DNA of 55,231 nucleotides from Actinomycetes bacterium (lineage in GTDB: Bacteria > Actinomycetota > Acidimicrobiia > Acidimicrobiales > RAAP-2): contig JAJYVT010000013.1 in NCBI GenBank assembly GCA_021791845.1, positions 1 through 55,231 on the forward strand. Direction: 5' to 3'. A program made the position numbers and the translations under genes. How positions within the stretch are numbered: the first letter of the stretch is position 1; every line of letters begins with the position of its first letter. The notes under the pieces are model-generated. The model was not told where the DNA came from and ran no database searches. It saw only the letters and a program-made list of their open reading frames with translations. Shown in pieces: positions 1,218 through 18,237 of the stretch.

Positions 1218-1269
1218 CAGGATGCGCGGGACCACCGACCGGCGCGTCGGGCGGCAGGAAGGGACCGGG

Positions 1270-3108: not shown

Positions 3109-3486
3109 TCAGACGGCCAGCCCGAGGGCGAAGCCGGCGGCGGCGGCGGCGAGCCCGACGGCCACGCTCACCGCGGCGTTGCCCGCCGCGTGCAGGATGC
3201 GGCCGTCCTGGAGCAGGCGGACGGTCTCGAACGTGAACGTCGAGAAGGTGGTGTAGGCGCCGCAGAAGCCGGTGGCGAGGAGCGCCGTTGCCGCGTCCGG
3301 GAGGTGGCCGCCGAGACTGAGACCGGTGAGGAAGCCGAGCACGAGCGACCCCGACACGTTGACGAGGAAGGTGCCCCACGGCAGGTCGGACCCGACCCGC
3401 TGGCTCACGGCCCGGTCGAGCAGGTAGCGAGACGGGGCGCCGACAAAGCCGCCCACGGCCACCAAGAGGAAGAGGAGCATCGTCAC
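3109..3486 (-). CDS. crcB: CrcB/Fluc fluoride channel, paralogue 1
   Basis: A 125-aa protein with four hydrophobic spans, the size of Fluc channels, which export F- passively as dual-topology dimers in the cytoplasmic membrane. It carries the family signatures: GGFVGAPSR near the start, GTFLVNVSGS with the pore Asn in TM2, and GFCGAYTTFSTF in TM3 with the phenylalanine-box and the Na+-site region. GTG 3486 is preceded by GAGGCGG; an ATG two codons later is possible. It is the last gene of the leftward operon crcB-DUF190-crcB and starts 12 bp after the DUF190 stop. Two paralogues in one operon may form a heterodimer, as known for some bacteria, but both keep all motifs so homodimers remain possible. 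Confidence 0.95.
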   Translation of the reverse strand: MTMLLFLLVAVGGFVGAPSRYLLDRAVSQRVGSDLPWGTFLVNVSGSLVLGFLTGLSLGGHLPDAATALLATGFCGAYTTFSTFTFETVRLLQDGRILHAAGNAAVSVAVGLAAAAAGFALGLAV

Positions 3487-3498
3487 GATCGGCCCGCC

Positions 3499-3837
3499 TC
3501 AGACGTCGACGATCTCGACGTCCTCGACGGTGGCCACGATGCCGTGTGCCAGCCCCGTCAGCTCGCGGAGGAAGCGGTCGATGCGGTCGGGGGTGTCGAC
3601 CAGCACCATCGAGAGCGGCCGGTCGTCGGAGAACACGTGCTCGCGGTGGACCTGGCCCTCGGTCCCGAACCCGAGCCGTCCCTCGAAGACGGTCGCCCCC
3701 ATGAGCTTGGCCTTCCGGGCGCGCTTCATCAGCTCCACCTCGAGGCTGGCGTGCCGGTAGCGGTCGCGCACGCCGAGCCAGATCGTCAGCCGCCGGGCCG
3801 GCCGGCCGGCGAAGCGGGACTCGACCGCAGCCGTCAC
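3499..3837 (-). CDS. DUF190 family protein (PII-like fold) between two crcB genes
   Basis: A 112-aa protein matching DUF190: an early RRLTIWLGVRDRYRHASL strand-helix, a central GATVFEGRLGFG and the LVDTPDRIDRF segment. GTG 3837 overlaps the stop of the upstream crcB by four bases (GTGA), so translation is probably coupled and the products made in fixed ratio. The family has a GlnB/PII-like fold (established from structures) and often lies beside crcB. A ligand-sensing or gating role for the fluoride channel is an inference from this context. The encoded basic segment KRARKAKLMG matches the usual helix of the family. No catalytic residues can be recognised. Confidence 0.88.
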   Translation of the reverse strand: MTAAVESRFAGRPARRLTIWLGVRDRYRHASLEVELMKRARKAKLMGATVFEGRLGFGTEGQVHREHVFSDDRPLSMVLVDTPDRIDRFLRELTGLAHGIVATVEDVEIVDV

Positions 3838-4358
3838 CGGTCGGTCTCCTGCACCCAGCGCTCGGCCCGGATGGCGACGCGGGCGGACCCCATCCCGAGC
3901 CACACGGCGAGCAGCCCGGCGAAGAGGCTTGCGAGGACGTACGCGACGGCCGTCGTCGGCCGGCCGTCGTGGACGAGCTGCACCGCGTCGACCATGAACG
4001 TCGAGAAGGTGGTGTAGGCGCCGAGGAAGCCGGCCCCGAGGATGGGCCGGGCCAGGCGGCCGCGCGGGAACTGCTCGAGCACGAGGATCAGCAGGAACCC
4101 GAGCACGAAGCTCCCGGTCACGTTGATGACGAAGGTCCCCCACGGGAACGCGCCGGCGGCCGCCGGCATCGCCAGCGCCACCGCGTAGCGGGTCACCGCG
4201 CCCGCCGCCCCGCCGCAGGCCAGCGCGAGGACGACCGCCCGGTTCCGCCCCGACCGGGCGCGGCGGCCACGGTCGAACGGCGCACCGGCCGGACCGGCGT
4301 CGAGGTCGGGATCGACAGGAGGGCGGCGCGACACATCACCTCTCGCCGTGGGTGCCAT
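3834..4358 (-). CDS. crcB: CrcB/Fluc fluoride channel, paralogue 2 (first gene of operon)
   Basis: A 174-aa protein: a polar N-terminal extension of about 40 residues (rich in Arg, Asp, Pro), then a four-helix Fluc domain with GGAAGAVTR, GTFVINVTGS and GFLGAYTTFSTF. The extension is longer than in most CrcB proteins and has no recognisable targeting signal. ATG 4358 was chosen because AAGGAG sits five bases upstream; an upstream in-frame ATG at 4394 would fall next to the riboswitch and has no such site. It is the first gene after the fluoride riboswitch at 4398-4444, so its translation should rise with fluoride. It overlaps the DUF190 gene by GTGA. Confidence 0.95.
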   Translation of the reverse strand: MAPTARGDVSRRPPVDPDLDAGPAGAPFDRGRRARSGRNRAVVLALACGGAAGAVTRYAVALAMPAAAGAFPWGTFVINVTGSFVLGFLLILVLEQFPRGRLARPILGAGFLGAYTTFSTFMVDAVQLVHDGRPTTAVAYVLASLFAGLLAVWLGMGSARVAIRAERWVQETDR

Positions 4359-4397
4359 CCAGCTCCTTGTTCGTTGATGCCTGGGACGAGGCAAAGC

Positions 4398-4444
4398 GGA
4401 CAGGAGCCATCAGCCATCTGGCGTTTCCGGCGAGCTCCATCGCC
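4398..4444 (-). promoter_or_regulatory. Fluoride riboswitch (crcB motif) controlling crcB-DUF190-crcB
   Basis: Read leftward, the element begins GGCGATGGAGCTCGCC, then GGAAACGCC, a four-base loop, and GGCTGATGGCTCCTGTCC, i.e. the conserved blocks of the fluoride aptamer in order. P2 is GGCG/CGCC. The pseudoknot strands are GGAGCU (loop after GAU) and GGCUCC near the 3' end, six pairs with one wobble. The same 3' strand (GCUCCU) is complementary to the crcB Shine-Dalgarno AGGAGC about 30 nt downstream, so fluoride binding should free the ribosome site. This predicts a translational ON switch. Confidence 0.95.
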
Positions 4445-4451
4445 TCCTACG

Positions 4452-4457
4452 AATTTA
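4452..4457 (-). promoter_or_regulatory. -10 element of the crcB operon
   Basis: TAAATT (TANNNT type) read leftward in a locally AT-richer patch. Seven bases later is the first G of the fluoride aptamer, the expected transcription start. No good -35 is seen. Confidence 0.6.
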
Positions 4458-4545
4458 CCAGGGAGGGGCCCGGGAGGAACATGAGCCGGTGGCGGCCGGC
4501 CGCGCGCCGCCCATTTGCGGAGGTCCCCGACCGGCCGCCGCGGTA

Positions 4546-4571
4546 CCGTCGGGGGGAGCACATCCCGACGG
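4546..4571 (+). promoter_or_regulatory. Inverted repeat before the second DUF190 gene
   Basis: CCGTCGGG and CCCGACGG form perfect 8-bp arms around a 10-base spacer, ending about 10 bases before the GGAGG ribosome site of the gene at 4591. It could be an operator or an mRNA hairpin. It does not match the fluoride aptamer. Confidence 0.5.
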
Positions 4572-4590
4572 GGTGCAGGCTGGAGGCAGG

Positions 4591-4962
4591 ATGCCGGTCA
4601 CCGAGGCGGCGACGAGGATCGTGGTCTTCCTGAGCGAGGACGATCGGATCGGGCACCGTGGGCTGCACGAGGTGATCGTCCAGCGGGCTCGCGAGGAGGG
4701 GATGGCCGGCGCGTCGGTGTGGAGGGGGATCGAGGGGTTCGGCGGGTCCGGCAGGATCCGGACCGCGAGGTTCCCCGACGCCGCGGCAGGGCTCCCGCTC
4801 GCCGTCGAGCTCGTCGACACGCCCGAGAGGATCGAGGCGTTCCTGGCCGTCGTGCACGAGCTCGCCCCGGGGTCGCTCGTGACGAGGGAGCCGGTGACCC
4901 TGGCCCGGCTCGGCGGGTCGGTGGCACCCAGCCTGGACGACCCCGTGCCCCGGCGCCGCTAG
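4591..4962 (+). CDS. DUF190 family protein, divergent copy
   Basis: A 123-aa protein with the DUF190 layout: an opening strand RIVVFLSEDD, helix HEVIVQRAREEGMAGASVW, RGIEGFGGSG and then VELVDTPERIEAFLAVVHEL. It aligns block by block with the DUF190 protein of the crcB operon but is clearly diverged. ATG 4591 is preceded by GGAGG at good spacing. It is transcribed away from the crcB operon with only about 130 bp of shared upstream DNA and has no aptamer of its own, so it may be expressed independently of fluoride. A PII-like sensor role is an inference from the fold of the family. The peptidase E-like gene follows about 120 bp downstream. Confidence 0.85.
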   Translation: MPVTEAATRIVVFLSEDDRIGHRGLHEVIVQRAREEGMAGASVWRGIEGFGGSGRIRTARFPDAAAGLPLAVELVDTPERIEAFLAVVHELAPGSLVTREPVTLARLGGSVAPSLDDPVPRRR

Positions 4963-6775: not shown

Positions 6776-7246
6776 TCAGACCACGAGGACGGGGCAGGGA
6801 TGGTGGCGGAGCAGGGCCTCGACCGAGCGGCCGAGGCCCCGGTGGGTGGTCTGCTCGCGGCCGTGGGTGCCGACGACCACGAGGTCGAAGCCGTGCTCCT
6901 CGGCGTACTTGGCGAGGGCGACGGCGGGGTCGTCCGCCAGCACGACCTCGGTCATCACCGTGGCGCCGGGCGAGGCGCGGTGCCCCGCCTCGGCCAACCC
7001 TCGGGACAGGTTGTCCCGCTCGGCCTCGGTGGCCCGCCGCTCTTCCTCCTCGGTCTCGGCGTGCGCCGGCGGCCGGACGACGAGCAGCACGTGCGCCTGC
7101 CCGCCCAGCTCGGAGGCGAGGGCGGTCGCCACGCGGAGGGCGTGGCGCGCCTCGGCCGAGCCGTCGAAGCCGACGAGGATGCGCCGGAAGACGCCGGCTG
7201 GGTGGTCGTGGGATCCCGGTTGCATCGTCCCCCCTTGGTCGGTCAT
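6776..7246 (-). CDS. Universal stress protein (UspA family)
   Basis: A 156-aa single-domain USP: RRILVGFDGSAEARHAL at the start, and an ATP-loop-like GTHGREQTTHRGLGRSVE followed by LLRHHPCPVLVV, which fits the nucleotide-binding G-2x-G-9x-G pattern. A charged helix (AETEEEERRATEAERDN) lies in the middle. ATG 7246 overlaps the hyfB stop (ATGA), implying coupled translation; ATG 7225 with AGGGGGG upstream is an alternative. USP genes have been reported among genes linked to fluoride riboswitches. Here the gene is carried in an operon behind a candidate one, so it may serve the same stress response as the membrane complex. Confidence 0.92.
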   Translation of the reverse strand: MTDQGGTMQPGSHDHPAGVFRRILVGFDGSAEARHALRVATALASELGGQAHVLLVVRPPAHAETEEEERRATEAERDNLSRGLAEAGHRASPGATVMTEVVLADDPAVALAKYAEEHGFDLVVVGTHGREQTTHRGLGRSVEALLRHHPCPVLVV

Positions 7247-9273
7247 TGCAGCGCGGCGGTGACCGCCAGGGCGATCAGGAGCGCGATCAGCATGTACGCC
7301 ACGTAGGCGTTGAGGTTCCCGGACTGGAGCCGCTTCGCCAGCCGGGCGACGGCGAGGACCCCGGTCCGGAGCGGCCGGTACACGTACGTCTCCAGGGGCT
7401 CGACAACGCGGGTCTCGGCCACGACGGGGACCTCGGTGAGGACCGGTTGCCGGCCGTCCTCCGGCTCGAGGATGGTCACGACCCGGCGGGTGCCGAGCAC
7501 GTTGCCGAGCACGCGCCGCAGCGGGTTGGCGAAGCCGAACGCCGTGTAGGCGGCCGGTTTCGACACGGCCGACGTGGCGGAGTGCCAGGCCGGGACGCGG
7601 CGGACCCGGAGGTAGCGCCCTCTTGACAGGGCGAGCGTCATGGCGAAGACGGCGAGGAAGGCCGTGGGCATGGCGATCCACAGCCACGACGGCGACAGGA
7701 TCGAGAACCCCTGGAACACGGGCTGGAGCACCCAGGGCGACTTGAGGGCGGCGGTGGTGGCGCCGTGCCGGACGAGGGGGCTCAGGCCCAGTGCGATGTA
7801 GCGCACCTCCCACGGGCTGACGGCGGCCACGCCGAGGCAGCCGGCCAGCAGGGCGACGAGGCCGGCCTTCCCCACGACCCCGGTCTCCCGGGCGCGCCCG
7901 GCCACGGCCGCGGTGGGCCGACCGAGGAGGGCGAGCCCGAGGACGCGGAGGAAGGTCAGGGCGGCCACGCCGGTCGTCAGCGCCACCAGGGCTCCGGCGC
8001 CGGCCAGTCCCAGCCTCAGGGCGAGGCCCGACAGGCGGAACTGCTGCATCAGCGCCTCGAGGATGAACCACTCCGACACGAAGCCGATCGTGGGCGGCAG
8101 GCCCGCCAGCGCCACCGCACCGGCCCCGAAGGCGGCGCCGCTCCAGGGCATGCGCCGGCCGACGCCCCGGAGGACGTCGAGGTCGTCGCTGCCCACCGCC
8201 CCCTCCACGTTGGCCAGCGACGAGAAGAGCGCCGACTTGGCGATGGCGTGCGCCACGGTCTGCAGCGTGGCCGCCAGCAGCCCCATCGCCATCAGCAGCT
8301 CGGAGCGGACCACGGCCCCGGTCAGGGCTACGCCGTAGGCGGTGACGATGAGGCCGGCGTTCTCGACCGACGAGTAGGCGATCACGCGCGCCAAGCGGCC
8401 CTGGACGGCGGCGAAGACGATGCCGAGGAGCGCCGTGGCGCCTCCGGCCAGGAGCACGATGACCACCAGCCAGACCGGGGGCCGGCCGAGGATGCCGAGG
8501 AAGCGCCACAGCCCGTAGACGCCGACGTTGGCGGCGATGCCGGCCATGGCCGCCCTCGCCGGGCCCGGCGCGGCCGGGTACCCCACCGGCATCCACACCT
8601 GGAAGGGCACGATCCCGAGCTTGGCCCCGAAGCCCACCACCACCAGGGTCCAGGCGACGTCGTGCACCGCGCCCGGCCCCACGGCGTGCCAGCGGGCGAG
8701 GGTGAGGCTCCCGGTGTGGCCGGCGAGGAGCAGGAAGGCGAAGAGCAGCGCGGCGCCGCTCACCTTCCCCATGCCCACGGTGGACCAGGTCGCGCCGGTC
8801 TGGCCCTTCCGCCGGGTGACCGCGGTCAGCATGTAGAAGGAGACGGTGAGGGCCTCCCAGGCGAAGAGGAAGGTGAAGGCGTCCGCCGCGCACAGGATCA
8901 CGGCCACCGCGCCCAACAGGAGCAGGTAGCCGGTGGCCGTGCCCCGCCGGTGCTGGCGGTCGGCGGGCCGCACCCAGGAGACGAAGCACGCCGACACGGC
9001 GACGCCGAGCCCGAAGAGCAGCGTGAGGAACAGCCCGGCGAGGTGGTCGATCCTGAGGGCGTTGTGGCCGACGCCGAAGACGGCCGAGAAGTCGACCGTG
9101 GTCGCCGCCGTGGTGGTGGCGTGGATCCCGAGCGCGAGGAAGCAGGCGCTCCCGGCGATGGCCAGCGCGTAGGGGACGACGCGGGTGACGACGTGCCGGA
9201 CGCCCCCGACGGCGTCGACGACGACGCCGGCGGCAAAGCACGCCAGGCCGGCCGCCACCAGCATGCTGCTCAC
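7243..9273 (-). CDS. hyfB: HyfB-like antiporter subunit of Ehr complex
   Basis: A 676-aa polytopic membrane protein of the NuoL/MrpA/HyfB group. It keeps the residues of the proton path: FAWEALTVSFYML (TM5 Glu), GFGAKLGIVPFQVWMP (TM7 Lys), the broken-helix region and SSVENAG. A soluble stretch near residues 540-620 (RRVVTILEPEDGRQP, VVEPLETYVYRPLR) and a C-terminal TM match the lateral extension of HyfB/HycC. GTG 9273 overlaps the upstream stop by GTGA. The subunit should move protons across the cytoplasmic membrane in an energy-converting complex. See the small and large subunit entries for the missing redox ligands. Confidence 0.9.
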   Translation of the reverse strand: MSSMLVAAGLACFAAGVVVDAVGGVRHVVTRVVPYALAIAGSACFLALGIHATTTAATTVDFSAVFGVGHNALRIDHLAGLFLTLLFGLGVAVSACFVSWVRPADRQHRRGTATGYLLLLGAVAVILCAADAFTFLFAWEALTVSFYMLTAVTRRKGQTGATWSTVGMGKVSGAALLFAFLLLAGHTGSLTLARWHAVGPGAVHDVAWTLVVVGFGAKLGIVPFQVWMPVGYPAAPGPARAAMAGIAANVGVYGLWRFLGILGRPPVWLVVIVLLAGGATALLGIVFAAVQGRLARVIAYSSVENAGLIVTAYGVALTGAVVRSELLMAMGLLAATLQTVAHAIAKSALFSSLANVEGAVGSDDLDVLRGVGRRMPWSGAAFGAGAVALAGLPPTIGFVSEWFILEALMQQFRLSGLALRLGLAGAGALVALTTGVAALTFLRVLGLALLGRPTAAVAGRARETGVVGKAGLVALLAGCLGVAAVSPWEVRYIALGLSPLVRHGATTAALKSPWVLQPVFQGFSILSPSWLWIAMPTAFLAVFAMTLALSRGRYLRVRRVPAWHSATSAVSKPAAYTAFGFANPLRRVLGNVLGTRRVVTILEPEDGRQPVLTEVPVVAETRVVEPLETYVYRPLRTGVLAVARLAKRLQSGNLNAYVAYMLIALLIALAVTAALQ

Positions 9274-10076
9274 GCGCCCGCCCCCCGGGCCGTCCCGTGC
9301 CCGCCTCCGGGAAGGAGGCCCACGGCCAAGAGGATGGCGGACAGGAGCCCGAACGGCGACGGCGGCGCCCCCGGGAGCCACACGTCGACGGGGACGGTGT
9401 CCCCCACCCCCCCCGCCGCCGCGTACCCTCGGCCCACCAGCCCGCCGCCGACCGCGTCGACGCCGGCGGCGATCACGACCTTCGGCTCCGGCATGACCTC
9501 GTAGGTCTCGCGCAGCGGCCCCAGCATCCCCGCCGCCCCGACGCCGGTCGCCAGCAACAGGTCGGCGTGCCGGGGGCTGGCGGTGAAGAAGATCCCGAGG
9601 CGGTGGACGTCGTACACCGGGTTGGTGAGCGCCGCGACCTCCCACTCGACTGCGCCGTCGGACCCGGCGTCCACGTGGCGCACGTGCACCGACCGGCGCA
9701 ACGCCCGGACCCGGCGGTGCAGTGCCGCCCTCGCGGCGGCGACGGCGGCGTCGCTCTCGGGTAGCGCCGGCACGACCAGCGCCTCGCGGGCGACGCCGGC
9801 CGTCTCGAAGTCGGCGTCGAGCTCGAAGGCTTCGGGGGCGAGCGCGACGCACCGCCCGCACAGGACGCACCGTCCCCGGTCGAGCCGGGGCCCGTCGGCG
9901 CCGTCGGCGATGGCGTCGGTCGGGCATGCCGTCGCCGCCGCCCCCACCCGCGACCGGTCGTGCGGACCGGGACGGACGGCCACCGCGGCCCGGAATCCCC
10001 GGCCGTAGCCGTCGGGACGGCGGGGGTAGGGCGTGGTGACGATCCCCTCGCGCAACCCTCTCGGGATCCACGGCAT
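9270..10076 (-). CDS. NuoB/HyfI-like small subunit fused to ferredoxin-like domain, cluster cysteines lost
   Basis: A 268-aa fusion. Residues about 40-95 form a ferredoxin-like segment with four Cys (ACPTDAI and CVLCGRC), enough for one 4Fe-4S cluster; the usual fourth Cys of the second motif is Ala. Residues about 125-250 match the small subunit of group 4 hydrogenases: ALTNPVYDVHRLGIFF, SPRHADLLLATG, LRETYEVMPEPKVVIAAG, VPVDVWLPGAPP. All cluster-ligating cysteines of that domain are gone: the SCNGCE block reads SDGAVE, GDCA reads GVDA and PGCPP reads PGAPP. The proximal cluster therefore cannot form. The gene starts 19 bp after hycE with AGGGGGG as ribosome site. It may be an electron entry point or only a structural part. 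Confidence 0.85.
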   Translation of the reverse strand: MPWIPRGLREGIVTTPYPRRPDGYGRGFRAAVAVRPGPHDRSRVGAAATACPTDAIADGADGPRLDRGRCVLCGRCVALAPEAFELDADFETAGVAREALVVPALPESDAAVAAARAALHRRVRALRRSVHVRHVDAGSDGAVEWEVAALTNPVYDVHRLGIFFTASPRHADLLLATGVGAAGMLGPLRETYEVMPEPKVVIAAGVDAVGGGLVGRGYAAAGGVGDTVPVDVWLPGAPPSPFGLLSAILLAVGLLPGGGHGTARGAGA

Positions 10077-10095
10077 CAGGCGTCCCCCCTGGTCC

Positions 10096-11592
10096 TCATC
10101 CTGCCACCCCGGCGATCGAGAGCCCGAAGCTCGCCTCGATGAACGCGAAGTCGGTGAGGATGTCGTTGGGGAAGGCGACGTGGAAGAGGCCCAGGTTGTG
10201 AAAGGAGGCGGAGCGGGGCTTCACCCGGGTCAGGCGGCCGTCGTCCATCGTCACGAAGTAGAAGACCTCCCCCTGGGGCGCCTCTGCCCACCCCACCGCC
10301 TCGCCGCCCACCCGGTCGCCGACGTCGACGGCCCACGGCGCGCCGCCGCCCACCTCCTCCAGCCGGTCGACCGCCTGGCGGATGAGGTGGAAGGCGCCTT
10401 CGATCTCGTCGATCCGGACGCGCTGGCGGGCCAGGGCGTCGCCCTCGGGGTGCGGATCGAACAGCTGGTGGCCCAGCCGCCCGTAGGCGGCGTAGGGCCG
10501 GGCCAGCCGGGCGTCGTCGCTCTGGCCCGACCCCCGCCCGAGCGGCCCGAGGGCCCCGTAGTCCTGGGCCAGGTCGGCGGGGATCACCCCGGTGCCGCGC
10601 AGCCGGTCGAGGAAGGAGGGGGTGGCCATGAGCATGCGGAGGTCGGACCGGATGTCCCGCTGGAGCTGGTCGATGGCGGCGTACAGCTCGCGGGCGGGCA
10701 CCCCCAGGCCGCTGCTCACCCCGCCGGGGACGACGACGCCCCGGCCGAAGCGGCTCCCGCACAGGCGCGCCCGCAGCCGGAGCAGCCGCTCCTTGTGGAG
10801 GCTCAGGCGGGCGAAGGCGACCGCCTGGCCCGCCCCCTCGCTGTGGCGGATGGTCGAGTCGAGGTGGTTGGCGATCCGCTCGAGCTCGGCGTGGACCACC
10901 CGCACCAACCCCGCCGGCTCGGGCACCTCCACCCCGGCCAGCCGCTCCACCGCGCCGGCGAAGGCGACGGCGTGGGCCACCGACGCCACGCCCTCGGTGC
11001 GCTCGGCGAGGAGCGTGCCGTCGGCCGCGTCCATCCCCTCGAAGCGGGCCTCGATGCCGCGGTGCTTGTAGAAGACCCGGGTGCGGAGGCTCGGGATGTC
11101 CTCGCCGGGCGTTTCGACGAGGTACTCGACCGACTCGAACACGCCGGAGCGCACCGGTCCGTAGGGGATGGTGAAGACCCCCTCCCCCCGGAGGCGAGGC
11201 GGCAGGGGCGCCACGTCGAGCTCGACCGCGTCCCGGGGCTTCCCCGACCCCGGCCACGGCCGGGAGGAGCCCGGCGCCAGCGGGAGCACGAGGGGGTCGA
11301 GGTTGCGGTGGCCGATCGCCTCGAGCCCGAAGAGGTCGTGGATCTCGCGCTCGTACCAGGTGGCGCCGGCCAGGCGTGCCGTGAGCGTGGGGAACCCGGC
11401 GCACCCGTCGGGGACGACGGCCGACTCGGTGTGGAGGCCGCCAGCCTCGGCGAGGACCGCGACGAGGTGCGTCCCGTCGGCGGCCGGCGCTGCCAACAGC
11501 CCGCAGAACCGGGCGCCGCGGCCGACGCGGTCGGCGACGCGGTCGGGGAAGCGGTCCAGCTCGGCCGGGCCGGGGCCGGCGGGGGCCGTCAT
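10096..11592 (-). CDS. HycE/NuoCD-like large subunit lacking NiFe ligands
   Basis: A 498-aa fusion of a NuoC-like domain (about 1-130; EREIHDLFGLEAIGHRNLDPL) and a NuoD/hydrogenase large-subunit domain (FYKHRGIEARFEG, ERIANHLDS, GLGVPARELY). In true NiFe enzymes two CxxC motifs hold the metal. Here the N-terminal one, usually ERxCGICS, reads ERTEGVAS, and the C-terminal one, usually DPCxxCTxR, reads GLSIAGVAG at the very end. The only Cys residues are isolated. There is no C-terminal extension for a maturation protease and no hyp genes nearby. This is the Ehr (energy-converting hydrogenase-related) pattern, also seen in the mycobacterial hycE-like locus. ATG 11592 overlaps hyfF by ATGA. Confidence 0.9.
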   Translation of the reverse strand: MTAPAGPGPAELDRFPDRVADRVGRGARFCGLLAAPAADGTHLVAVLAEAGGLHTESAVVPDGCAGFPTLTARLAGATWYEREIHDLFGLEAIGHRNLDPLVLPLAPGSSRPWPGSGKPRDAVELDVAPLPPRLRGEGVFTIPYGPVRSGVFESVEYLVETPGEDIPSLRTRVFYKHRGIEARFEGMDAADGTLLAERTEGVASVAHAVAFAGAVERLAGVEVPEPAGLVRVVHAELERIANHLDSTIRHSEGAGQAVAFARLSLHKERLLRLRARLCGSRFGRGVVVPGGVSSGLGVPARELYAAIDQLQRDIRSDLRMLMATPSFLDRLRGTGVIPADLAQDYGALGPLGRGSGQSDDARLARPYAAYGRLGHQLFDPHPEGDALARQRVRIDEIEGAFHLIRQAVDRLEEVGGGAPWAVDVGDRVGGEAVGWAEAPQGEVFYFVTMDDGRLTRVKPRSASFHNLGLFHVAFPNDILTDFAFIEASFGLSIAGVAG

Positions 11593-13079
11593 CGCGGCAC
11601 TCCGAGCTCGTGGACGGCGTGGTCGAGCAGGTGGCTGAGCGCGGCGGGCGGGTGCACGCCGAGGATGGTGAGGGCCAGCAGCCCGGCCGCCATCGACGCC
11701 ACGATCCACGTGCTCACCTCGCCCTTGGGCGGCGTGACGACGGCGCCGTTGCCGCTCGCCGGCTCCGTGACGTTCGGGGAGAGCATCGTCTGGGTCGTGA
11801 ACCACGACAGCCCGAAGAAGGCGAGGGTCACGAGCACGACCAGGACGGCCGTGACCACGTCGTGCGGGTCGGAGAGGCCGCCGGACACGATGAGGAACTC
11901 GCTGCGGAAGATGCCGAAGGGGGGGAGCGCCGACAGCGCGAGCACGGCGGCAACGAGCATCGGGCCGCTCCACGGCAGCGCGCCGATGCCACCCCGGATC
12001 TTGGCCATGTCCTTGAGGCCGAACTTCCGCAGCACCGATCCGGCGCCGAAGAACGCCGTCCCCTTTGCCGCCGCGTGGCACAGCACGTGGAGCAGCACGC
12101 CGAAGATGGCGATGGGCACGCCGAAGCTCATCCCGATGGCCAGGATCCCCATGTGCTCGACGCTCGAGTACGCGAGGAGGCGTTTCATGTCCCGCTGGCT
12201 GAGCAGGTAGAGCGCGGCGAGGAGGAGCGACGCCAGGCCGAAGATCAGGAGCACGGTGCGAGGGAACGTCGGCCCGATCGCCCGCACGGTGATCTGGAAG
12301 AAGCGCAGGATGGCGTAGAAGCAGATGGCCAGCAGCGCCCCCGACAGCAGGGCCGAGACCGGCGTCGGCGCCTCGGAGTGGGCGTCGGGAAGCCACGTGT
12401 GCACGGGGACGAGGCCCATCTTGGTGCCGAACCCGAGCACCGAGAGCACGAAGGCCACGCGGACCGCGCCGGCGGGGAAGTGGCCGGCGCCGCCCAGCAT
12501 CTTGGCGTACGACAGGGAGTACGACCCCCCGAAGACCGTGGTCCCCGCGTAGTACATGACGATCGTGGCCAGCAGCGCGATCCCGAGCCCGAGCGACGCG
12601 ATCAGCACGTACTTCCAGGCGGCTTCGGTGGCGCCGTCGGTGTCGTCGATGGCGGCGAGCAGCGCGGAGACCACGGTCGTGATCTCGACGGCCACCCAGA
12701 GCAGTGCCAGGCCGTTCACGAGCAGGGCGGCGAGCATGGACCAGCAGAACAGGTTCAGCCCGGCGTAGAAGCGCCGCCCGTAGCGGGCACCGGCGGCGTT
12801 CTTGGCCAGGTGGAGGTAGCCGCCGGCAAAGAGGGAGGTCGTGGCGTAGAGGAACGCCGTCGCGACCAGGAACACCACCGACAGCGCGTCCACGCGGAGC
12901 AGGCTCCCGGCTGCGACCTGGGAGTGGTCGGCCGCGGTGGGCACGAGGACGAGGGCGAGCACGAAGGCGGCGGTGCCCGAGACGACCGACACCACGCGCG
13001 AGGCGCGGACCGGGAGGAAGAACGTGGCGACCGAGACGGCGAAGGGGAACACGAGCAGGGTCACGAGCACGGCGGGCAT
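11589..13079 (-). CDS. hyfF: HyfF/HycQ-like antiporter subunit of Ehr complex
   Basis: A 496-aa protein with about 14 predicted membrane helices, NuoN/HyfF type. The proton-path residues are intact: LLWVAVEITTVVSA (TM5 Glu), LGFGTKMGLVPVHTWLPDAHSEAPTPVSALLSG (TM7 Lys and TM8 region) and AYSSVEHMGI. The overlap with the large-subunit gene (ATGA) and a 6-bp gap from hyfE place it inside one transcription unit. A hydrophilic stretch near residues 430-460 (NVTEPASGNGAVVTPPKGEVS) separates the last helices. With HyfB it supplies two antiporter-like channels, so ion translocation is probably retained although the redox head is degenerate. Confidence 0.92.
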   Translation of the reverse strand: MPAVLVTLLVFPFAVSVATFFLPVRASRVVSVVSGTAAFVLALVLVPTAADHSQVAAGSLLRVDALSVVFLVATAFLYATTSLFAGGYLHLAKNAAGARYGRRFYAGLNLFCWSMLAALLVNGLALLWVAVEITTVVSALLAAIDDTDGATEAAWKYVLIASLGLGIALLATIVMYYAGTTVFGGSYSLSYAKMLGGAGHFPAGAVRVAFVLSVLGFGTKMGLVPVHTWLPDAHSEAPTPVSALLSGALLAICFYAILRFFQITVRAIGPTFPRTVLLIFGLASLLLAALYLLSQRDMKRLLAYSSVEHMGILAIGMSFGVPIAIFGVLLHVLCHAAAKGTAFFGAGSVLRKFGLKDMAKIRGGIGALPWSGPMLVAAVLALSALPPFGIFRSEFLIVSGGLSDPHDVVTAVLVVLVTLAFFGLSWFTTQTMLSPNVTEPASGNGAVVTPPKGEVSTWIVASMAAGLLALTILGVHPPAALSHLLDHAVHELGVPR

Positions 13080-13085
13080 CGGCGG

Positions 13086-13751
13086 CTACCCCTTCAACCG
13101 GTCGAGCTCTTCGGTGGACAAGGTCCTGGTCCGCCCGTGGTGGACCCGCATGATGACCCCGATGACGACCACGGCCACCAGGAGGTCGAAGAGGAAGGCC
13201 ACCTCCAGGATGAGGGGGAGGCCGGCAGCGAGGACCAAGGTGGCGACGTACACGCTGTTCTCCACCGAGAAGAAGCCCATCGCCTGCGAGACCACGTCGG
13301 CTCGCAGGACGATCAGCACGAAGGCGACCAGTACGGCGGCGACGGCGATGGCGAGGGCCGTCGCGGGCAGGGTCGGGGAGTGGACGTGGAGCGACCCGGC
13401 GGCAAAGAAGCCGAAGGCCGACACGGCGATGGCGATGAGGGCCATGCTGGCGACGCCGAGGACCGGGCTCCCGGCCAGGTCGACGTCGGCGTCGTGCAGG
13501 AGCCGGCTGACCAGGGCCGGGACGATCACCACCTTCAGGACGAAGGTGAGGGCCGCCAGCGCGTAGAGCGCGCCGATGTGGCGGACGGCGGCGATCTCGA
13601 GCGTCAGCGCCGTCACCACCAGCGACTGGAAGGCGTAGATCCGCACCTGCGAGCGCAGGAGCGCCGCCCGCAGCATTGCGAACTCGGTCAGGAGCACCAG
13701 CGTGGCGACGATGTCGGCGACGCCGGCGTAGGTGGACGGGGCGAGCGCCAT
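13086..13751 (-). CDS. hyfE: HyfE/HycP-like (MnhC/NuoK-related) membrane subunit
   Basis: A 221-aa integral membrane protein with about seven spans and a short charged tail (HHGRTRTLSTEELDRLKG). It resembles HyfE, which combines NuoJ/NuoK-like helices; QAMGFFSVENSVYVATLVL is the NuoK-like segment with a membrane Glu. ATG 13751 shares its first base with the end of the hycD stop (TGATG), implying re-initiation. The position between hycD and hyfF is the same set of genes as the mycobacterial hycD-hycP-hycQ-hycE locus, although there the small-subunit and HyfB genes lie at the other end. No catalytic role is expected; it is part of the proton-translocating arm. Confidence 0.88.
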   Translation of the reverse strand: MALAPSTYAGVADIVATLVLLTEFAMLRAALLRSQVRIYAFQSLVVTALTLEIAAVRHIGALYALAALTFVLKVVIVPALVSRLLHDADVDLAGSPVLGVASMALIAIAVSAFGFFAAGSLHVHSPTLPATALAIAVAAVLVAFVLIVLRADVVSQAMGFFSVENSVYVATLVLAAGLPLILEVAFLFDLLVAVVVIGVIMRVHHGRTRTLSTEELDRLKG

Positions 13752-14716
13752 CAGCCGCCCCTGGCGTAGAAGATGAACACCGCCAGCACGGCGAGCAGGA
13801 AGGCCGCGGCGAGGAACTCGGTGATCTTGAACAGGCGGAGCTTGGAGAAGAGGTTGTCGACGAGGGCGAAGATGCAGCCGAGGAGGATGGCCTTGCCCAG
13901 CAGGGCCAGGATGGCGAGCACCACCGATCCGCCGCTGCCCGTACCCGAGAGGCCCCACGGCGCCACGAACACGTTGATGAGGATCGTGTAGAGGATCAGC
14001 TGCTTCATCGCCGATCCCCACTTCAAGAGGGCCAGCGCCGGCCCGGAGTGCTCGAGCGTGCGCCCCTCGTCGATCATCCCGAGCTCGAGCGTCCCGGTGT
14101 GCGTCTCGACCGGGATGCGGCCGGTGTCGGCCAGCACCACGAGGAAGAAGGCGATGGCGGCGAACACGTGCCCCGGCCGGACGATCTCCGAGGTGGAGGA
14201 CCGCACCGTCGCCGCCATGGCGTACGGGAGGTCGGTGCTCGTGAGCAGCGCCACCGCGAAGACGACGAACAGGATGGTCGGCTCGATCAGGGCGCCGAAC
14301 GTCATGGCGCGGCTGCTCCCCAGCTGCGCGTAGGGCGCGCCCGACTCGGTCCCCGACAGGGCGACCGAGAACCCGGCCAGCGCCAGGATGAACCCGCCCC
14401 CGAGGATGTCCCCCATGTACCCGAGCGGCAGGCCGTACGTGGTCAGGACCGGGATCAGGAGCGGCACGATGAGGTAGCAGCCGAAGGCCACGACCGGGCC
14501 GGCCAGGAAGACCCAGCTGGACTCCTCGGTCACCACCGTCTCCTTGCGGAAGAGCTTGGCGAGGTCGTAGTACGGCTGGAGCATGCGAGGGCCGCGGCGG
14601 CCCTGGAGCCGGGCCTCGACGTGGGAGACGACGCCGCTCACCAGCGGAGCCCCGAGGAGGATGGTCGCGTCCTGCAGTGCCTGGATGCCCTGTGGTGCGA
14701 CGACGCCTGGCCCCAA
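13751..14716 (-). CDS. hycD: HycD/NuoH-like membrane anchor subunit
   Basis: A 321-aa protein with about eight membrane helices, first gene of the Ehr operon. The NuoH/HycD signatures are GRRGPRMLQPYYDLAKLF near residue 40 and the loop DTGRIPVETHTGTLELGMIDEGRTLEHSGP that contacts the peripheral arm in complex I relatives. The start is TTG 14716, chosen because GGGGAGG stands five bases upstream and no suitable ATG or GTG exists before the first helix. The leader carries a candidate fluoride riboswitch (14746-14805) and a hairpin CCGAA-CTCG-TTCGG at 14734-14747 next to the ribosome site. Role: anchor between membrane and soluble arms. Confidence 0.9.
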   Translation of the reverse strand: MGPGVVAPQGIQALQDATILLGAPLVSGVVSHVEARLQGRRGPRMLQPYYDLAKLFRKETVVTEESSWVFLAGPVVAFGCYLIVPLLIPVLTTYGLPLGYMGDILGGGFILALAGFSVALSGTESGAPYAQLGSSRAMTFGALIEPTILFVVFAVALLTSTDLPYAMAATVRSSTSEIVRPGHVFAAIAFFLVVLADTGRIPVETHTGTLELGMIDEGRTLEHSGPALALLKWGSAMKQLILYTILINVFVAPWGLSGTGSGGSVVLAILALLGKAILLGCIFALVDNLFSKLRLFKITEFLAAAFLLAVLAVFIFYARGG

Positions 14717-14745
14717 CGCGACCTCCCCACGCTCCGAACGAGTTC

Positions 14746-14805
14746 GGTAGAGCCATCAGCCCGTGAGGGCGGTTCGAGCAGGCGCTCGCCGGGGCGTCAT
14801 CCGGC
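14746..14805 (-). promoter_or_regulatory. Candidate variant fluoride riboswitch before the Ehr operon
   Basis: The 3' half, read leftward, is close to consensus: AACCGCCC, a four-base loop, GGGCTGATGGCTCTACC. The 5' half starts GCCGGATGACGCC with a GCCG/CGGC stem around GATG, as expected. It then has an extra GAGC-GCCT-GCTC hairpin before AACC, and the pseudoknot pairing is poor. The first base lies just after a good promoter. It is either a variant aptamer or a decayed one. Confidence 0.65.
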
Positions 14806-14811
14806 ATGGCA

Positions 14812-14894: not shown

Positions 14895-14900
14895 TACGAT
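14895..14900 (+). promoter_or_regulatory. -10 element of the histidine-phosphatase gene
   Basis: TACGAT (TANNNT) lies six bases before the first G of the aptamer at 14907. It stands about 80 bp from the divergent promoter of the Ehr operon. No clear -35. Confidence 0.55.
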
Positions 14901-14906
14901 GAGAGC

Positions 14907-14953
14907 GGGCGATGGAGCTCACCCGAACTGCCGCGATGGCTGATGGCTCCTGC
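14907..14953 (+). promoter_or_regulatory. Fluoride riboswitch before a histidine-phosphatase gene
   Basis: The blocks run GGGC, GATG, GAGCTC, ACCC, GAACTGCC, a short loop, GGC, TGATGGCTCCTGC. Pseudoknot strands GGAGCU (14914-14919) and GGCUCC (14945-14950) pair fully with one wobble, the same strands as in the crcB riboswitch. P2 has three G-C pairs and one C-A mismatch. Downstream, CCTGCA (14949-14954) can pair with TGCAGG (14971-14976) abutting the ribosome site GGAGGT (14978-14983), which suggests translational control. Confidence 0.88.
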
Positions 14954-14988
14954 AGACGATCGGCATGCGTTGCAGGGGGAGGTGGGCG

Positions 14989-15639
14989 ATGGAGACGATG
15001 TCGGACGGACGGCACGGGGCCGGGCCGCAGGGCCTGCCGCCAACGTGCGTCTACCTGGTCCGGCACGGCCAGACGGCGCTCAATGCGGCCGGCGTGCTCC
15101 GAGGCCGCCTGGACCCGCCGCTGGACGAGATCGGCCAGCAGCAGGCCGCCAACCTCGGCGCCGCCCTCGGCTGCCGGGGGATCTCGCGCATCGTGGCCAG
15201 CCCGCTGCGGCGCACGATCGAGACCGCGACCGCCATCGGCGCGGCGTGCGGGGCGACGGTCACCGCCGATGCCAGGCTGATCGACCGCGACTACGGGCCG
15301 TGGGCCGGCCGGCCGGCGGAGGACGTGGAGTCGGCATGGGGCTCGGTCGAGGCCGCGCCGGGGGTGGAGCCGGCGGGCGACGTGCGGGCCCGGGCCATGG
15401 CCGCGCTGGCCGACGTCGCGTGCGAGGCGGCCGGAGGCACGGCGGCGGTGGTGAGCCACGACGTCGTCATCCGGCTGTGCCTGGTGGCCTGCGACCCGCG
15501 GCTCGGCGACCCGGGCCAGTTGTCGCAGGGCACGGGACGGTTCAACGTCCTGGAGCTCCGCTCCGGCGCGTGGTACGTGCTGGGCATCGACGAGGACCCC
15601 GTCACGTCGCCGTTCGTGCGGCGACGGCGAGCGACGTGA
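14989..15639 (+). CDS. Histidine phosphatase superfamily (phosphoglycerate mutase-like) protein
   Basis: A 216-aa enzyme with LVRHGQT (catalytic His near residue 26), ASPLRRTIETA, and VVSHDVVIRL with the second catalytic His. These give the RHG phosphatase core that passes phosphate through phosphohistidine. The length and the simple fold fit broad-specificity phosphatases (CobC/GpmB-like) rather than dPGM. ATG 14989 follows GGAGGT at five bases; an upstream ATG at 14965 and a later one at 14998 are less likely. It is preceded by a fluoride riboswitch, so the product may replace or by-pass a fluoride-sensitive phosphatase or act on a metabolite that builds up when enolase is inhibited. Substrate unknown. 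Confidence 0.9.
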   Translation: METMSDGRHGAGPQGLPPTCVYLVRHGQTALNAAGVLRGRLDPPLDEIGQQQAANLGAALGCRGISRIVASPLRRTIETATAIGAACGATVTADARLIDRDYGPWAGRPAEDVESAWGSVEAAPGVEPAGDVRARAMAALADVACEAAGGTAAVVSHDVVIRLCLVACDPRLGDPGQLSQGTGRFNVLELRSGAWYVLGIDEDPVTSPFVRRRRAT

Positions 15640-15673
15640 CCGCCTCCGGGACACTGCCGGCCCGGGAGGAGCC

Positions 15674-16279
15674 GTGAACCGCGTCGCCGTCTTCGTCGAC
15701 GACGAGGGTTTCTCCCGGAGCGGCTTCGACGCCTTCGGCTCCTTGCCGTCGCGCGGACCCCCACCTGCGCTCGACCCTGCTGCCGTTGCCTGCGCCCTGC
15801 TCGCGGGCGCGGGCGGCCGGCGGGCGCTCGAGGCGTTGCGCGTCTACTGCGCCGTTCCCGACGGCCGCGTGGACGAGCCTGCGTTCGCCGACGCCCTGCG
15901 GGCGATGGAGCGGTGGTCGGCGGCCGGCGCCGTCGTGGTCCGGCGACCGGTGGGCGCCGCTGGCTGCCGGTGCGCTCCGGGCCAGAAGGGGCTGGCGGTC
16001 GCGCTGGCGATCGACCTCGTGTCGATGGCCTGGCGCGACGAGTACGACGTGGCGATCGTCTGCTCGTGCGACCAGGATCTCGAGCCGGCCGTCAAGGCCG
16101 TGCTCGACCAGACGTGGAAGACCGTCGAGGTGGCCGCGTGGCGGAACCCGGCTCGGCCGCGGTGCCGGCTCACCGTGCCGGAGGAACGGGTGCGGTGCCA
16201 CTGGCTGGACGGCGTCGTGTACGACCGCTGCGTGTGCGACCGCTGCGTGTGCGACCGCTGCACCGGAGCCGGTCGATGA
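15674..16279 (+). CDS. NYN-domain protein with cysteine-repeat tail
   Basis: A 201-aa protein with NYN (PIN-like) nuclease features: VAVFVDDEGF at the start (acidic pair), KGLAVALAIDLVSMA and YDVAIVCSCDQDLEPAV with the third acidic cluster. Such proteins usually act on RNA in a Mg-dependent way. The final residues are DRCVCDRCVCDRC, made by three 15-bp tandem repeats, giving five Cys in 13 residues; Cys is also frequent earlier (GCRCAPG). The tail could bind zinc or iron, or be a neutral repeat expansion. GTG 15674 follows GGGAGGA. It starts 34 bp after the phosphatase gene and may share the fluoride-controlled transcript. Confidence 0.8.
   Translation: MNRVAVFVDDEGFSRSGFDAFGSLPSRGPPPALDPAAVACALLAGAGGRRALEALRVYCAVPDGRVDEPAFADALRAMERWSAAGAVVVRRPVGAAGCRCAPGQKGLAVALAIDLVSMAWRDEYDVAIVCSCDQDLEPAVKAVLDQTWKTVEVAAWRNPARPRCRLTVPEERVRCHWLDGVVYDRCVCDRCVCDRCTGAGR
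16216..16260 (+). repeat. Three 15-bp tandem repeats inside the NYN gene
   Basis: Unit CGTGTGCGACCGCTG; copies at 16216-16230 (one mismatch), 16231-16245 and 16246-16260. The length is a multiple of three and each copy adds a Cys-rich pentapeptide. Confidence 0.95.
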
Positions 16280-16437
16280 GCCCTGCTCACGAGCCTGCCG
16301 GGGGGCGCGGTGCGGCTCGAACCGGGGCCGGTGCGCGGCCGCTCCCGAGCCGCGCCGTCGTGCAACCGTGCGGTCACCGGCGCCACCGCGTCGACGTCTT
16401 GGACCGGGCCAGCGCCGCGTCCTGCGGGTGCCGTGGG

Positions 16438-18237
16438 TCAGGCGGCGAGGAACCCGCCCGACTGGTGCCGCCACAGGCGGCCGTAGACGCCCGTTTCCCC
16501 CAGGGCCAGCAGCTCGCGATGGGAGCCCTGCTCCACGATCTCGCCCTGGTCGATCACCACGATCCGGTCGAGCCGGGCGATGGTGGCGAGCCGGTGGGCC
16601 ACCACCAGTGCGGTGGCGTCCGACATGAGCCGCCATAGCGCCTCTTGGACCAGCACCTCCGACTCCGAGTCGAGGGCGGAGGTGGCCTCGTCCAGGATGA
16701 GGATGGGCGCAGCCTTGGCCATGGCCTGGGCGATGGCCACCCGCTGACGCTGGCCGCCCGACAGCTTGAGCCCGCGCTCGCCGACGACCGTGTCGTACCC
16801 CTCGGGCAGGCGCTGGACGAACTCGTGCACGTGGGCCGCCTTGCCCACTCGTCGCACGAGGTCCATGTCCGGCCCGTCTTCCCCCTCCATGCCGTAGAGG
16901 ATGTTGTCGGCGATCGTGCGGTGGAGCATCTGCGGGTCCTGCGGCACGAAGGAGATGTGGCGCCGCAGGGAGGACTGGGTGACACGGGCGATGTCCTGCC
17001 CGTCGATGGCGATGGTCCCGCCGTCGATGTCCATGAAGCGCAGCACGAGCTTGGTGAGCGTGGTCTTGCCCGAGCCCGACGCCCCCACCAACCCGACGTG
17101 CTCGCCCGGGGCGATGTCGAGGTTCAGGTTGTCGAAGAGCACGGGGTGCCCGGGGTAGGCGAAGCGCACGTGGGACAGCTCGATGCCGCCCGCCCGCACC
17201 CCGAGCTCGGGGGCGCCCGGCACGTCGACGATCTCCGGGGGGGTGGCGGCGATGCCGGCGAACTTGGCGCAGCGGCCGAGGCCGCGTGAGGACTGCCGGA
17301 TGTACTCGAAGGACTCCTCCATCGATCCCACCACCGCGGTGGTGTAGAAGAGGATCAGGTAGATCGTCCCGGCCGCCGCCGAGTGGTGCAGGGCGAGCAG
17401 GACGCCCACCAGCACCGCCAGCCAGCTGAAGACCCCCAGCGACCCTTCCATCTGCAGGCGGGTGGAGGCGAAGATCCGCCGAGCCTCCAGGTCCGCCGCC
17501 ACCGTCTGGCCCACCAGGCGCTCGACGTGCCTGCCCTCGAGGGGCTCCGCCGCCTGCGCCCGGATGGTGGTGAGGTTGGTGATGGTGTCGGCCAGCACGC
17601 CCGTCGCCCGGCTGTGGGTGTCGGAGAACTTCTTCCCCGCCGCGACCACGAGGGCCATCCGGCTCTTCAGCACGAGGCAGAAGGCGAGCGCCAGCACGGT
17701 CATCACGACCGCCACCGGCCATGCCACCACCGCCAGGACGACGATGGCGGACAAGACGGTCACCACCACGCGCAGGTAGCCCCAGTTCAAGGTGTCGAGC
17801 AGGTCCACGAAGGCCCAGGAGAACGTCTCGAGGGTGGAGATGACCTCGCCCGCCGGCCGGTCCGAGTGCCACCGGTGGCTCAGGCTGATGAGGTGGTCGT
17901 AGCCGCGCACCAGGGCGTGGGCGAAGGCGTGCAGCGACGCCCCCCACTCGACCCAGCCCGCCGCCCGCCACATGAGGGTGCTGGCGACGAGCACCACGGC
18001 GTAGGCGATCACCAGCGGCTCGAACGTCGAGCTGAACGACGCGTGCGGTGGCAGCTGTGCCACCCGCGTCAGCAGGGAGGCGAGGATCAGCGGTCCGGCA
18101 ACGGACTGCAGCGCCGTGGCCAGGATGGTGAGGACCCATCCGAGCACGGTCTGCTTCTTGTACGGGCCGACCTGGTCCCAGCAGAAGGCCAGGGTGTCCC
18201 GGGTCGATGCGGTGGGGAAGAGCGAGTCGGCGCTCAT
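16438..18237 (-). CDS. ABC exporter, fused membrane and ATPase domains
   Basis: A 599-aa half-transporter of the MsbA/LmrA type. Residues about 20-310 carry six membrane helices. Residues about 345-599 form the ATPase: Walker A GASGSGKTT, Q-loop FVPQDPQML, signature LSGGQRQRVA, Walker B ILILDEATSALD, switch VAHRLAT. All ATPase residues are present, so it could work as a homodimer; no partner half-transporter is adjacent. ATG 18237 has ACGGAG upstream; the frame stays open for 39 more codons through a 15-bp repeat tract but those codons look non-coding. It converges with the NYN gene (158 bp between the stops). The substrate (lipid, peptide or drug) is not visible. Confidence 0.9.
   Translation of the reverse strand: MSADSLFPTASTRDTLAFCWDQVGPYKKQTVLGWVLTILATALQSVAGPLILASLLTRVAQLPPHASFSSTFEPLVIAYAVVLVASTLMWRAAGWVEWGASLHAFAHALVRGYDHLISLSHRWHSDRPAGEVISTLETFSWAFVDLLDTLNWGYLRVVVTVLSAIVVLAVVAWPVAVVMTVLALAFCLVLKSRMALVVAAGKKFSDTHSRATGVLADTITNLTTIRAQAAEPLEGRHVERLVGQTVAADLEARRIFASTRLQMEGSLGVFSWLAVLVGVLLALHHSAAAGTIYLILFYTTAVVGSMEESFEYIRQSSRGLGRCAKFAGIAATPPEIVDVPGAPELGVRAGGIELSHVRFAYPGHPVLFDNLNLDIAPGEHVGLVGASGSGKTTLTKLVLRFMDIDGGTIAIDGQDIARVTQSSLRRHISFVPQDPQMLHRTIADNILYGMEGEDGPDMDLVRRVGKAAHVHEFVQRLPEGYDTVVGERGLKLSGGQRQRVAIAQAMAKAAPILILDEATSALDSESEVLVQEALWRLMSDATALVVAHRLATIARLDRIVVIDQGEIVEQGSHRELLALGETGVYGRLWRHQSGGFLAA

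Follow-up and report, generated by a model that had tools for sequence, protein, structure and literature searches.

A fluoride-riboswitch-linked, Ehr-like membrane complex of actinobacteria without NiFe or proximal iron–sulfur ligands

Introduction

Complexes related to energy-converting hydrogenases (Ehr) that carry no NiFe motifs are already known (PMC4378227, PMC6349859, PMC10284858 and PMC10432482). Passages of three of these papers call their function unknown (PMC4378227, PMC10284858 and PMC10432482), and a passage of the fourth suspects them of coupling redox chemistry to ion movement (PMC6349859). Here we describe an operon of this kind at positions 7243–14716, minus strand, of a 55,231-nucleotide stretch of DNA from an Actinomycetes bacterium of the Acidimicrobiales (assembly GCA_021791845.1, contig JAJYVT010000013.1), referred to below as the window. 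The operon encodes a hydrogenase-like membrane complex in which the ligands of the NiFe site and of the proximal 4Fe-4S cluster are both missing, and it is preceded by a variant fluoride-riboswitch aptamer. Its probable role is in surviving fluoride, perhaps through proton movement, and not in handling hydrogen.

Fluoride exposure has been tied to cytoplasmic acidification, and Na+/H+ antiporters are said to rank just behind exporters in frequency among riboswitch-linked genes, both in passages of PMC11139923. Within the open-access literature searched, the fluoride-riboswitch setting of an Ehr-like operon is new: no paper on a fluoride-linked operon lacking NiFe or proximal ligands was found among the matches listed, and the terms fluoride riboswitch and hydrogenase occurred together in a single paper, on per- and polyfluoroalkyl substances and Escherichia coli.

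A conserved operon of hydrogenase-like parts

The six genes of the operon overlap or nearly abut, in the order hyfC, hyfE, hyfF, large subunit, ferredoxin–NuoB fusion and hyfB. By Pfam and NCBIfam the parts are relatives of complex I and hydrogenase-4, and four of the six proteins have their closest solved counterparts in subunits of E. coli formate hydrogenlyase. The leading gene (13751–14716, TTG start) encodes a HyfC/HycD/NuoH-like membrane subunit (PF00146, 8.8e-36; 7z0s_D, 9e-39). It is followed by a HyfE-like membrane subunit (13086–13751) with no Pfam match and a match to NF008556 at 2e-23 that lies under the curated cut-off, and by a HyfF/NuoM-like antiporter-type subunit with invariant charged residues (11589–13079; PF00361, 2.1e-47), to which no solved chain matched at a strict limit of 1e-30. 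The NuoC/D-type large subunit (10096–11592; PF00346, PF00329 and PF00374) and the ferredoxin–NuoB fusion that forms the small subunit (9270–10076; PF01058 and PF13370; 7z0s_G) come next, and a HyfB/HycC-like antiporter-type subunit (7243–9273; PF00361, 2e-35; 7z0s_C, 7e-33; the MrpA chain 7d3u_A, 5e-23) completes the set. A universal stress protein gene (6776–7246, minus strand; PF00582, 4.9e-26) trails hyfB and overlaps its end.

The ligand-free complex is a conserved actinobacterial family. Of 61 nearby genomes, 18 hold an orthologue scoring at least 250 bits, comprising 12 of 13 genomes of the genus (that of the window included), 6 of 24 others of the family and none of 24 others of the order, and two more were found in a 296-genome sample of the phylum. 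A scan of GTDB genomes returned 332 stretches, the best 80 of which form the named loci (L numbers) used throughout; loci with G handles overlap with them (for example L061/L080 and L070/L073), so the counts are not additive. The best 80 include Acidimicrobiaceae, Streptomyces, Actinacidiphila, Amycolatopsis, Leifsonia, Pseudonocardiaceae, Propionibacteriaceae and uncultured Mycobacterium, together with numerous metagenome-assembled genomes of unclassified actinobacteria. A search for viral relatives gave 16 pattern matches, none of which encodes a relative. Because the 18 orthologues and the 80 loci show the same loss of ligands, neither chance nor a sequencing error at the cysteine codons can account for it; the latter is ruled out by the many independent loci. 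The thought that the operon is a decaying, non-functional remnant draws on the lost redox ligands, but invariant residues in every subunit (across up to 80 loci), open reading frames and a conserved leader leave it with scarcely any chance of being right.

One relative lies outside a chromosome: on plasmid pJCM12687 of Mycobacterium branderi (L156) the complex sits beside genes for enolase, DUF190, MFS, universal stress, NUDIX and histidine phosphatase proteins, and the plasmid carries three Rfam-level fluoride riboswitches.

The large subunit has no NiFe ligands

The earlier note on this DNA had read the large subunit as devoid of NiFe CxxC motifs, and comparison with CxxC-bearing hydrogenases bears this out. 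ERTEGVAS and IEASFGLSIAG occupy the places of the two motifs, with E200 (codon 10993–10995) and S488 (codon 10129–10131, both minus strand) at former cysteine positions. All three CxxC-bearing hydrogenases compared carry R(I/V)CGIC at the N-terminal site, and the C-terminal NiFe motif of hydrogenases is DPCxxC, as a passage of PMC4378227 states. In the window subunit all four NiFe cysteines are missing, and with them the RxCGxC and DPCxxC that mark group 4 NiFe hydrogenases and formate hydrogenlyase. What stands there instead is fixed: E200, E486 and S488 are invariant across the 80 rows of the large-subunit alignment. RTEGVA aligns with RMDYLS in the NuoD of the same genome, a site that we take to be that of the quinone-binding Tyr/His of complex I, and this Tyr/His pair too is absent from the window protein.

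Similarity of the subunits and of their fold to E. coli formate hydrogenlyase might suggest a genuine formate hydrogenlyase or hydrogenase. Against this, every NiFe and proximal-cluster ligand is absent, and HypD, the Hyp protein searched for, was not found in the host genome, which is 90.84% complete and may have an assembly gap there. On these grounds the complex is almost certainly not a hydrogenase, and we reject that reading.

The small subunit has lost its proximal cluster and kept another

Alignment to HycG (7z0s_G) and MbhJ (6cfw_J) places the proximal-cluster cysteines of those proteins at D140, V143, D207 and A237 of the window small subunit (9366–9659, minus strand). The proximal 4Fe-4S cluster, a usual feature of Ehr complexes though not one stated as defining in the passages of the Ehr papers, is without ligands in all 80 named loci: cysteine occurs in none of 80 at the first three positions and in none of 79 at the fourth, where one locus is cut off. 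The replacements follow a pattern. Position 140 is Asp in 80 of 80, a count biased by the inclusion of D140 in one of the two search patterns (RHVDAGSD); position 143 is Glu in 61, Asp in 17 and Ala in 2; position 207 is Asp in 76 and Glu in 4; and position 237 is Ser in 73, Ala in 5 and Asn in 1, with one cut off. The 18 orthologues, which came from a protein search free of that bias, all carry D140, D207 and the four ferredoxin cysteines, and none has a cysteine at a ligand position. V143 of the window is unusual against the Glu or Asp of most of the family, and the Mycobacterium branderi plasmid relative has N140.

The single complete 4Fe-4S motif of the small subunit is formed by C51, C70, C73 and C76 (9849–9926, minus strand), which represent the second CxxCxxC and the CP of the first ferredoxin motif; all four are present in 80 of 80 named loci. 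From the ligand assignments we take the retained cluster to be N6b-like and adjacent to the missing N2. The earlier claims that all four proximal cysteines are gone and that one 4Fe-4S site remains in a fused ferredoxin segment thus hold well beyond the window. The NuoB fold is supported by AlphaFold and Foldseek, with 7z0s_G as best match and 6cfw_J at a root-mean-square deviation of 1.8. Since confidence in the AlphaFold model is only moderate (mean predicted local distance difference test score 75.8, below 50 for residues 1–25), we claim no geometry for the acidic site.

These residues bear on two further explanations. The complex may still be redox-driven, with a soluble donor reducing the single 4Fe-4S cluster and electrons passing to an acceptor that is bound either by the ferredoxin domain itself or in the altered pocket of the large subunit, so that protons are pumped. 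The cluster cysteines kept in all 80 loci speak for such a route, as do the invariant E200, E486 and S488 of the pocket and the retention of the proximal cluster by relatives that lie behind the same kind of switch (see below). Steps of the formate hydrogenlyase relay each measure less than 14 Å, according to a passage of PMC9474812. With the proximal cluster gone, electrons would face a long gap between the retained cluster and the pocket, judging by an inferred two-step distance, and Pfam and NCBIfam scans recognised no formate dehydrogenase or soluble donor module in the window operon; taken together, this makes a redox drive unlikely.

Alternatively, the former cluster site may have become a divalent-metal site of the Mg2+ type, with D140, the acidic residue at 143 and D207 as ligands, perhaps joined by E200 and E486 of the large subunit, which would sense fluoride as a metal–fluoride complex and gate the antiporters. 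Carboxylates stand at three of the four cysteine positions in nearly all loci, and an acidic residue (Asp or Glu) also stands at position 207 in two further Ehr lineages that lost cysteines (L052/L068 and L161). Those two lineages lack a fluoride switch, however; the carboxylate gives way to V143 in the window, A143 in two loci and N140 in M. branderi, a sister type (L053, L054 and L067) has Pro at 207, and sequence cannot reveal a metal. Such a site is improbable. The bolder version, in which a carboxylate metal–fluoride site has taken the place of the proximal cluster, so that the antiporter modules are driven or gated by fluoride chemistry and no longer by electron transfer, we regard as decidedly improbable.

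Some genomes hold more than one Ehr type. L110 encodes two complexes, at 8877–9704 (plus strand) and 15333–16639 (minus strand), one without and one with proximal-cluster cysteines, and genomes G002, G004 and G011 likewise carry both types. Cysteines in the L110 row of the alignment proved to be an artefact of merging with the second complex of that locus.

Antiporter-type membrane subunits keep their charged residues

HyfB and HyfF were first read as retaining the Glu and Lys of proton pathways, and they do so across the family, along with His. HyfB residues E140, K218, E304, H342, K346 and E401 are invariant in 77 rows, and HyfF residues E132, K220, H335, K339 and E394 in 69, counting rows with a letter at the position. 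E. coli HycC has Leu where HyfB has K218, which makes HyfB the more complete antiporter type. HycD has an E-channel (PMC9474812), and of its residues E138, E203 and E206 are kept in the window HyfC, with Asp at E189.

A variant fluoride aptamer precedes the operon

The leader of the operon matches the Rfam fluoride-riboswitch family RF01734 at 14741–14799 (minus strand) with 24.8 bits, under the cut-off of 34. Two models extended the search: R1, from 11 Rfam-level matches, and R2, from 25 variant leaders with the window excluded. R2 finds the aptamer, which carries an inserted helix, immediately before the operon (14744–14809, minus strand; 62.3 bits, E 4.4e-15). Distances were counted from the start of the hyfC match, which is not a proven start codon, and 63 of the 80 loci, having hyfC plus 250 nucleotides upstream, could be assessed. 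R1 places a same-strand aptamer just upstream of hyfC in 57 of these 63, four of which (L106, L114, L128 and L136, with canonical leaders above the Rfam cut-off) belonged to its own training set. R2 adds L093, L110, L111 and L130, so that an aptamer lies within about 250 nucleotides upstream in 61 of 63, and the remaining L135 and L151 have same-strand R1 matches about 0.9 and 0.5–0.6 kb upstream. A motif pattern is found in 46 of 63 leaders and in 2 of 7058 control windows.

The inserted helix sits between the first hairpin and the AAC core in leaders of Acidimicrobiaceae and many unclassified metagenome-assembled genomes. Across 25 leaders 93.5% of cells pair, and both sides vary in 10 of 18 pairs; on each of five measures all 500 shuffles scored lower, and the signal vanishes when the partner is slid, for a test structure derived in part from the same alignment. 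Covariation is clear in the first hairpin, the inserted helix and the third helix. It is weak in the pseudoknot, with one both-sided cell and one pair unpaired in 7 of 25. An inserted helix of at least 4 bp is present in 39 of 47 leaders (shuffled mean 9.2, maximum 18). At the Rfam gathering cut-off none of seven variant leaders was reported, and the variant is probably under-counted in annotations of these actinobacteria.

The leaders also hint at how the switch may work. Allowing G-U pairs, a duplex of at least 7 bp between the 3′ strand of the aptamer and the ribosome-binding site is possible in 51 of 58 leaders (shuffled mean 16.0, maximum 24), in 50 of 58 with a GGAG/GAGG site, and one of at least 8 bp in 49 of 58 (mean 5.3, maximum 11). 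Exact-match pairing is weak, reaching at least 6 nucleotides in 7 of 57 (mean 4.3, maximum 12) and at least 7 in 5 of 57 (mean 0.8, maximum 4). Since the strand and the binding site can pair in most leaders, the sequences suggest translational control of the operon, with fluoride as the ON signal.

Two other aptamers deserve mention. The top-scoring variant (R2, 76.5 bits) is at 3199–3265 (minus strand) of L135, divergent from the operon there, and the host genome of the window has another canonical fluoride riboswitch (G000:C118:13619-13679, 43.9 bits).

The switch is shared by a clade of Ehr complexes

A tree of large and small subunits (44 taxa, LG+F+R4 preset, with three hydrogenases and one complex I as outgroups) separates the family and other Ehr from the CxxC-bearing hydrogenases and complex I with an ultrafast bootstrap (UFBoot) of 96 in this one tree. 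Together with the vanished proximal cluster, this agrees with the first description of an Ehr-like complex whose redox arm is reduced still further. The family is monophyletic (UFBoot 100) and joins L053/L054, which read Cys, Cys, Pro, Ser at the proximal positions, at UFBoot 99. A fluoride-linked clade unites it with L053/L054, L157, L055/L057 and the type of L056 and L168–170 (UFBoot 99), with the placement of L157 less certain (UFBoot 78). Within the clade four proximal cysteines are found in L157 (Caballeronia), L057 and L056, in which the L168–170 type was read, and three in L055. The gene order C-E-F-L-S-B is common to the complete operons of the clade.

Fluoride aptamers lie upstream of the L053, L054, L067, L057, L168, L170 and L157 operons and at least 1.7 kb upstream in L055. 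No aptamer was seen at E <0.01 upstream of 11 other Ehr loci (L052, L058, L066, L068, L069 and L158–L163) or of the operons of three hydrogenase loci (L164–L166). In the phylum sample, where the first 41 small-subunit matches (E at most 6.5e-31; 30 with loci) were compared with RF01734 on the same contig, seven of nine clade matches have a same-strand Rfam match within 8 kb, the window's own being sub-threshold. In the other two (G277 and G117) the aptamer is seen only with R2 (L130, taken as the same contig from its length) or R1 (L060), and none of the remaining 32 matches, to Ehr, hydrogenase or other complexes, has such an RF01734 match under strict filters that lose weak matches.

That loss of N2 goes with fluoride control was considered and rejected: L057 and L157, with four cysteines each, and L168 and L170, of the four-cysteine L056 type, also lie behind aptamers, so cluster loss is not what fluoride control requires. 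Proximal cysteines have been lost outside the clade as well, in L052/L068 (Thr, Cys, Asp, Asp) and in L161 on plasmid pMESIL01 of Allomeiothermus silvanus (Thr, Asp, Glu, Ser), all without a fluoride aptamer upstream; the third ligand position is acidic in three lineages and Pro in L053, L054 and L067. The earlier note raised the mycobacterial Rv0082–Rv0087 set as a possible sharer of the loss. That set was compared through L066, whose gene order is presumably that of Rv0082–87. Sharing is rejected for L066, which retains all four small-subunit cysteines.

A fluoride-response island

Genes of fluoride response surround the operon. A canonical fluoride riboswitch (4394–4453, minus strand; RF01734, 49.2 bits) precedes two CrcB/Fluc channel subunits (3834–4358, PF02537, 8.4e-29, and 3109–3486, PF02537, 5.7e-31; both minus strand), and a DUF190 gene (4489–4962, plus strand; PF02641, 1.5e-28), a candidate fluoride-response gene, diverges from the pair. 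On the other side, a second canonical riboswitch (14899–14959, plus strand; 44.4 bits) diverges from the operon and is followed by a histidine phosphatase gene (14965–15639, plus strand; PF00300, 3.5e-40). The earlier note called the energy source for ion movement unknown and named fluoride only as a proposed test; the island sharpens that point.

Counted anywhere in the 80 loci, as raw numbers without a background control, the neighbours are universal stress protein (36), MutS-like (25), DUF190 (21), dynamin-like (17), CrcB (13), DegV (13), enolase (11), histidine phosphatase (11), MFS (10) and pyrophosphatase (3). In 55 loci one or more of nine chosen families is present, and in 22 CrcB, enolase or pyrophosphatase. 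Such a regulon context would suit a complex that itself exports F− or HF (hydrogen fluoride). That idea is very doubtful, for dedicated CrcB channels lie near the operon in the window and the invariant residues include known antiporter proton-path residues.

Elsewhere in the window, genes for a MutS domain V protein and a dynamin-like GTPase (15–3057) adjoin the CrcB pair, and two neighbouring tRNA genes with long variable arms lie at 42086–42171 and 42805–42889 (minus strand). Peptidase S51, which adjoins the operon, was dismissed as a conserved neighbour, being found in none of the 80 loci.

A possible route from fluoride to proton expulsion

How might these parts act together? The reading we favour, at a probability of roughly 45%, takes the operon as a fluoride-inducible, redox-silent member of the Ehr group that would act as a cation/proton antiporter against the acid load of HF. 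Fluoride would bind the leader aptamer and turn translation on. The complex would then be put together in the manner of the formate hydrogenlyase membrane part and carry a NuoB/NuoD-like cap, and the proton-path residues of HyfB and HyfF would support secondary cation/proton antiport, which the cap may gate instead of feeding in electrons. Because HF would diffuse in and F− leave through the neighbouring CrcB channels, a net leak of protons would arise, and the antiporter could expel the protons that HF brings. The remaining 4Fe-4S cluster may be structural or serve as a redox sensor. Induction by fluoride, antiport, gating and the role of the cluster are what we infer from this arrangement.

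Several observations weigh against the proposal. The ferredoxin cysteines, kept in every locus, are not obviously needed by a redox-free machine, and the ion specificity of any HyfB/HyfF antiport is not readable from sequence. Pfam and NCBIfam scans recognised none of the small Mrp subunits (MrpB, C, E, F and G) in the window operon, and HycD E-channel residues E130, E199, E201 and R108 are replaced in its HyfC. The window leader pairs weakly with its own ribosome-binding site, over 6 bp; relatives that keep some or all proximal cysteines (L053, L054, L067, L057, L157, L168 and L170) are under the same kind of switch; and 25 of the 80 loci have none of the nine context families, 34 of the 80 being shorter than 15 kb. 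As the antiporter proposal leaves the invariant cluster and the acidic replacement of N2 unexplained, a redox route and a metal–fluoride gate stay in contention as its rivals.

The riboswitch matters beyond this operon, as it names a likely inducer and so makes one Ehr branch testable. Given a ligand-free family within a fluoride-linked Ehr clade, the formate hydrogenlyase given among fluoride-riboswitch targets is, at least in part, probably something other than a formate hydrogenlyase. Natural intermediates with four, three, two and no proximal cysteines also offer a view of a complex-I-type arm losing its electron wire and keeping its ion machinery.

Comparison with known systems

Among solved structures, E. 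coli formate hydrogenlyase 1 (7z0s/7z0t) is the best match for HyfC, HyfB and the large and small subunits. It differs from the window complex in having the NiFe site and the proximal cluster, in an E-channel that is partly changed here, and in the Leu of HycC where HyfB has K218. Mrp (CPA3) antiporters, which need no redox centre, resemble the complex through the match of HyfB to MrpA; a NuoB/NuoC/D cap and a HyfC subunit set the window complex apart from Mrp, and of the MrpA–G set only MrpA/D-like antiporter-type subunits were recognised. With the RF01734 (crcB motif) regulon the locus shares the aptamer core and pseudoknot and such neighbours as CrcB, enolase, pyrophosphatase and MutS-like proteins, but the variant leaders have an extra covarying helix and, where tested, score below the Rfam cut-off.

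Ehr complexes are the nearest kin. The mycobacterial type (L066) likewise has no NiFe ligands, but differs in its four proximal cysteines, in the order S-B-C-E-F-L and in having no riboswitch upstream. With Ehr in general the window family shares group-4-hydrogenase-like subunits free of NiFe ligands; what sets it apart is a conserved acidic pattern in place of the proximal cluster, a ferredoxin fused to NuoB and control by a fluoride riboswitch.

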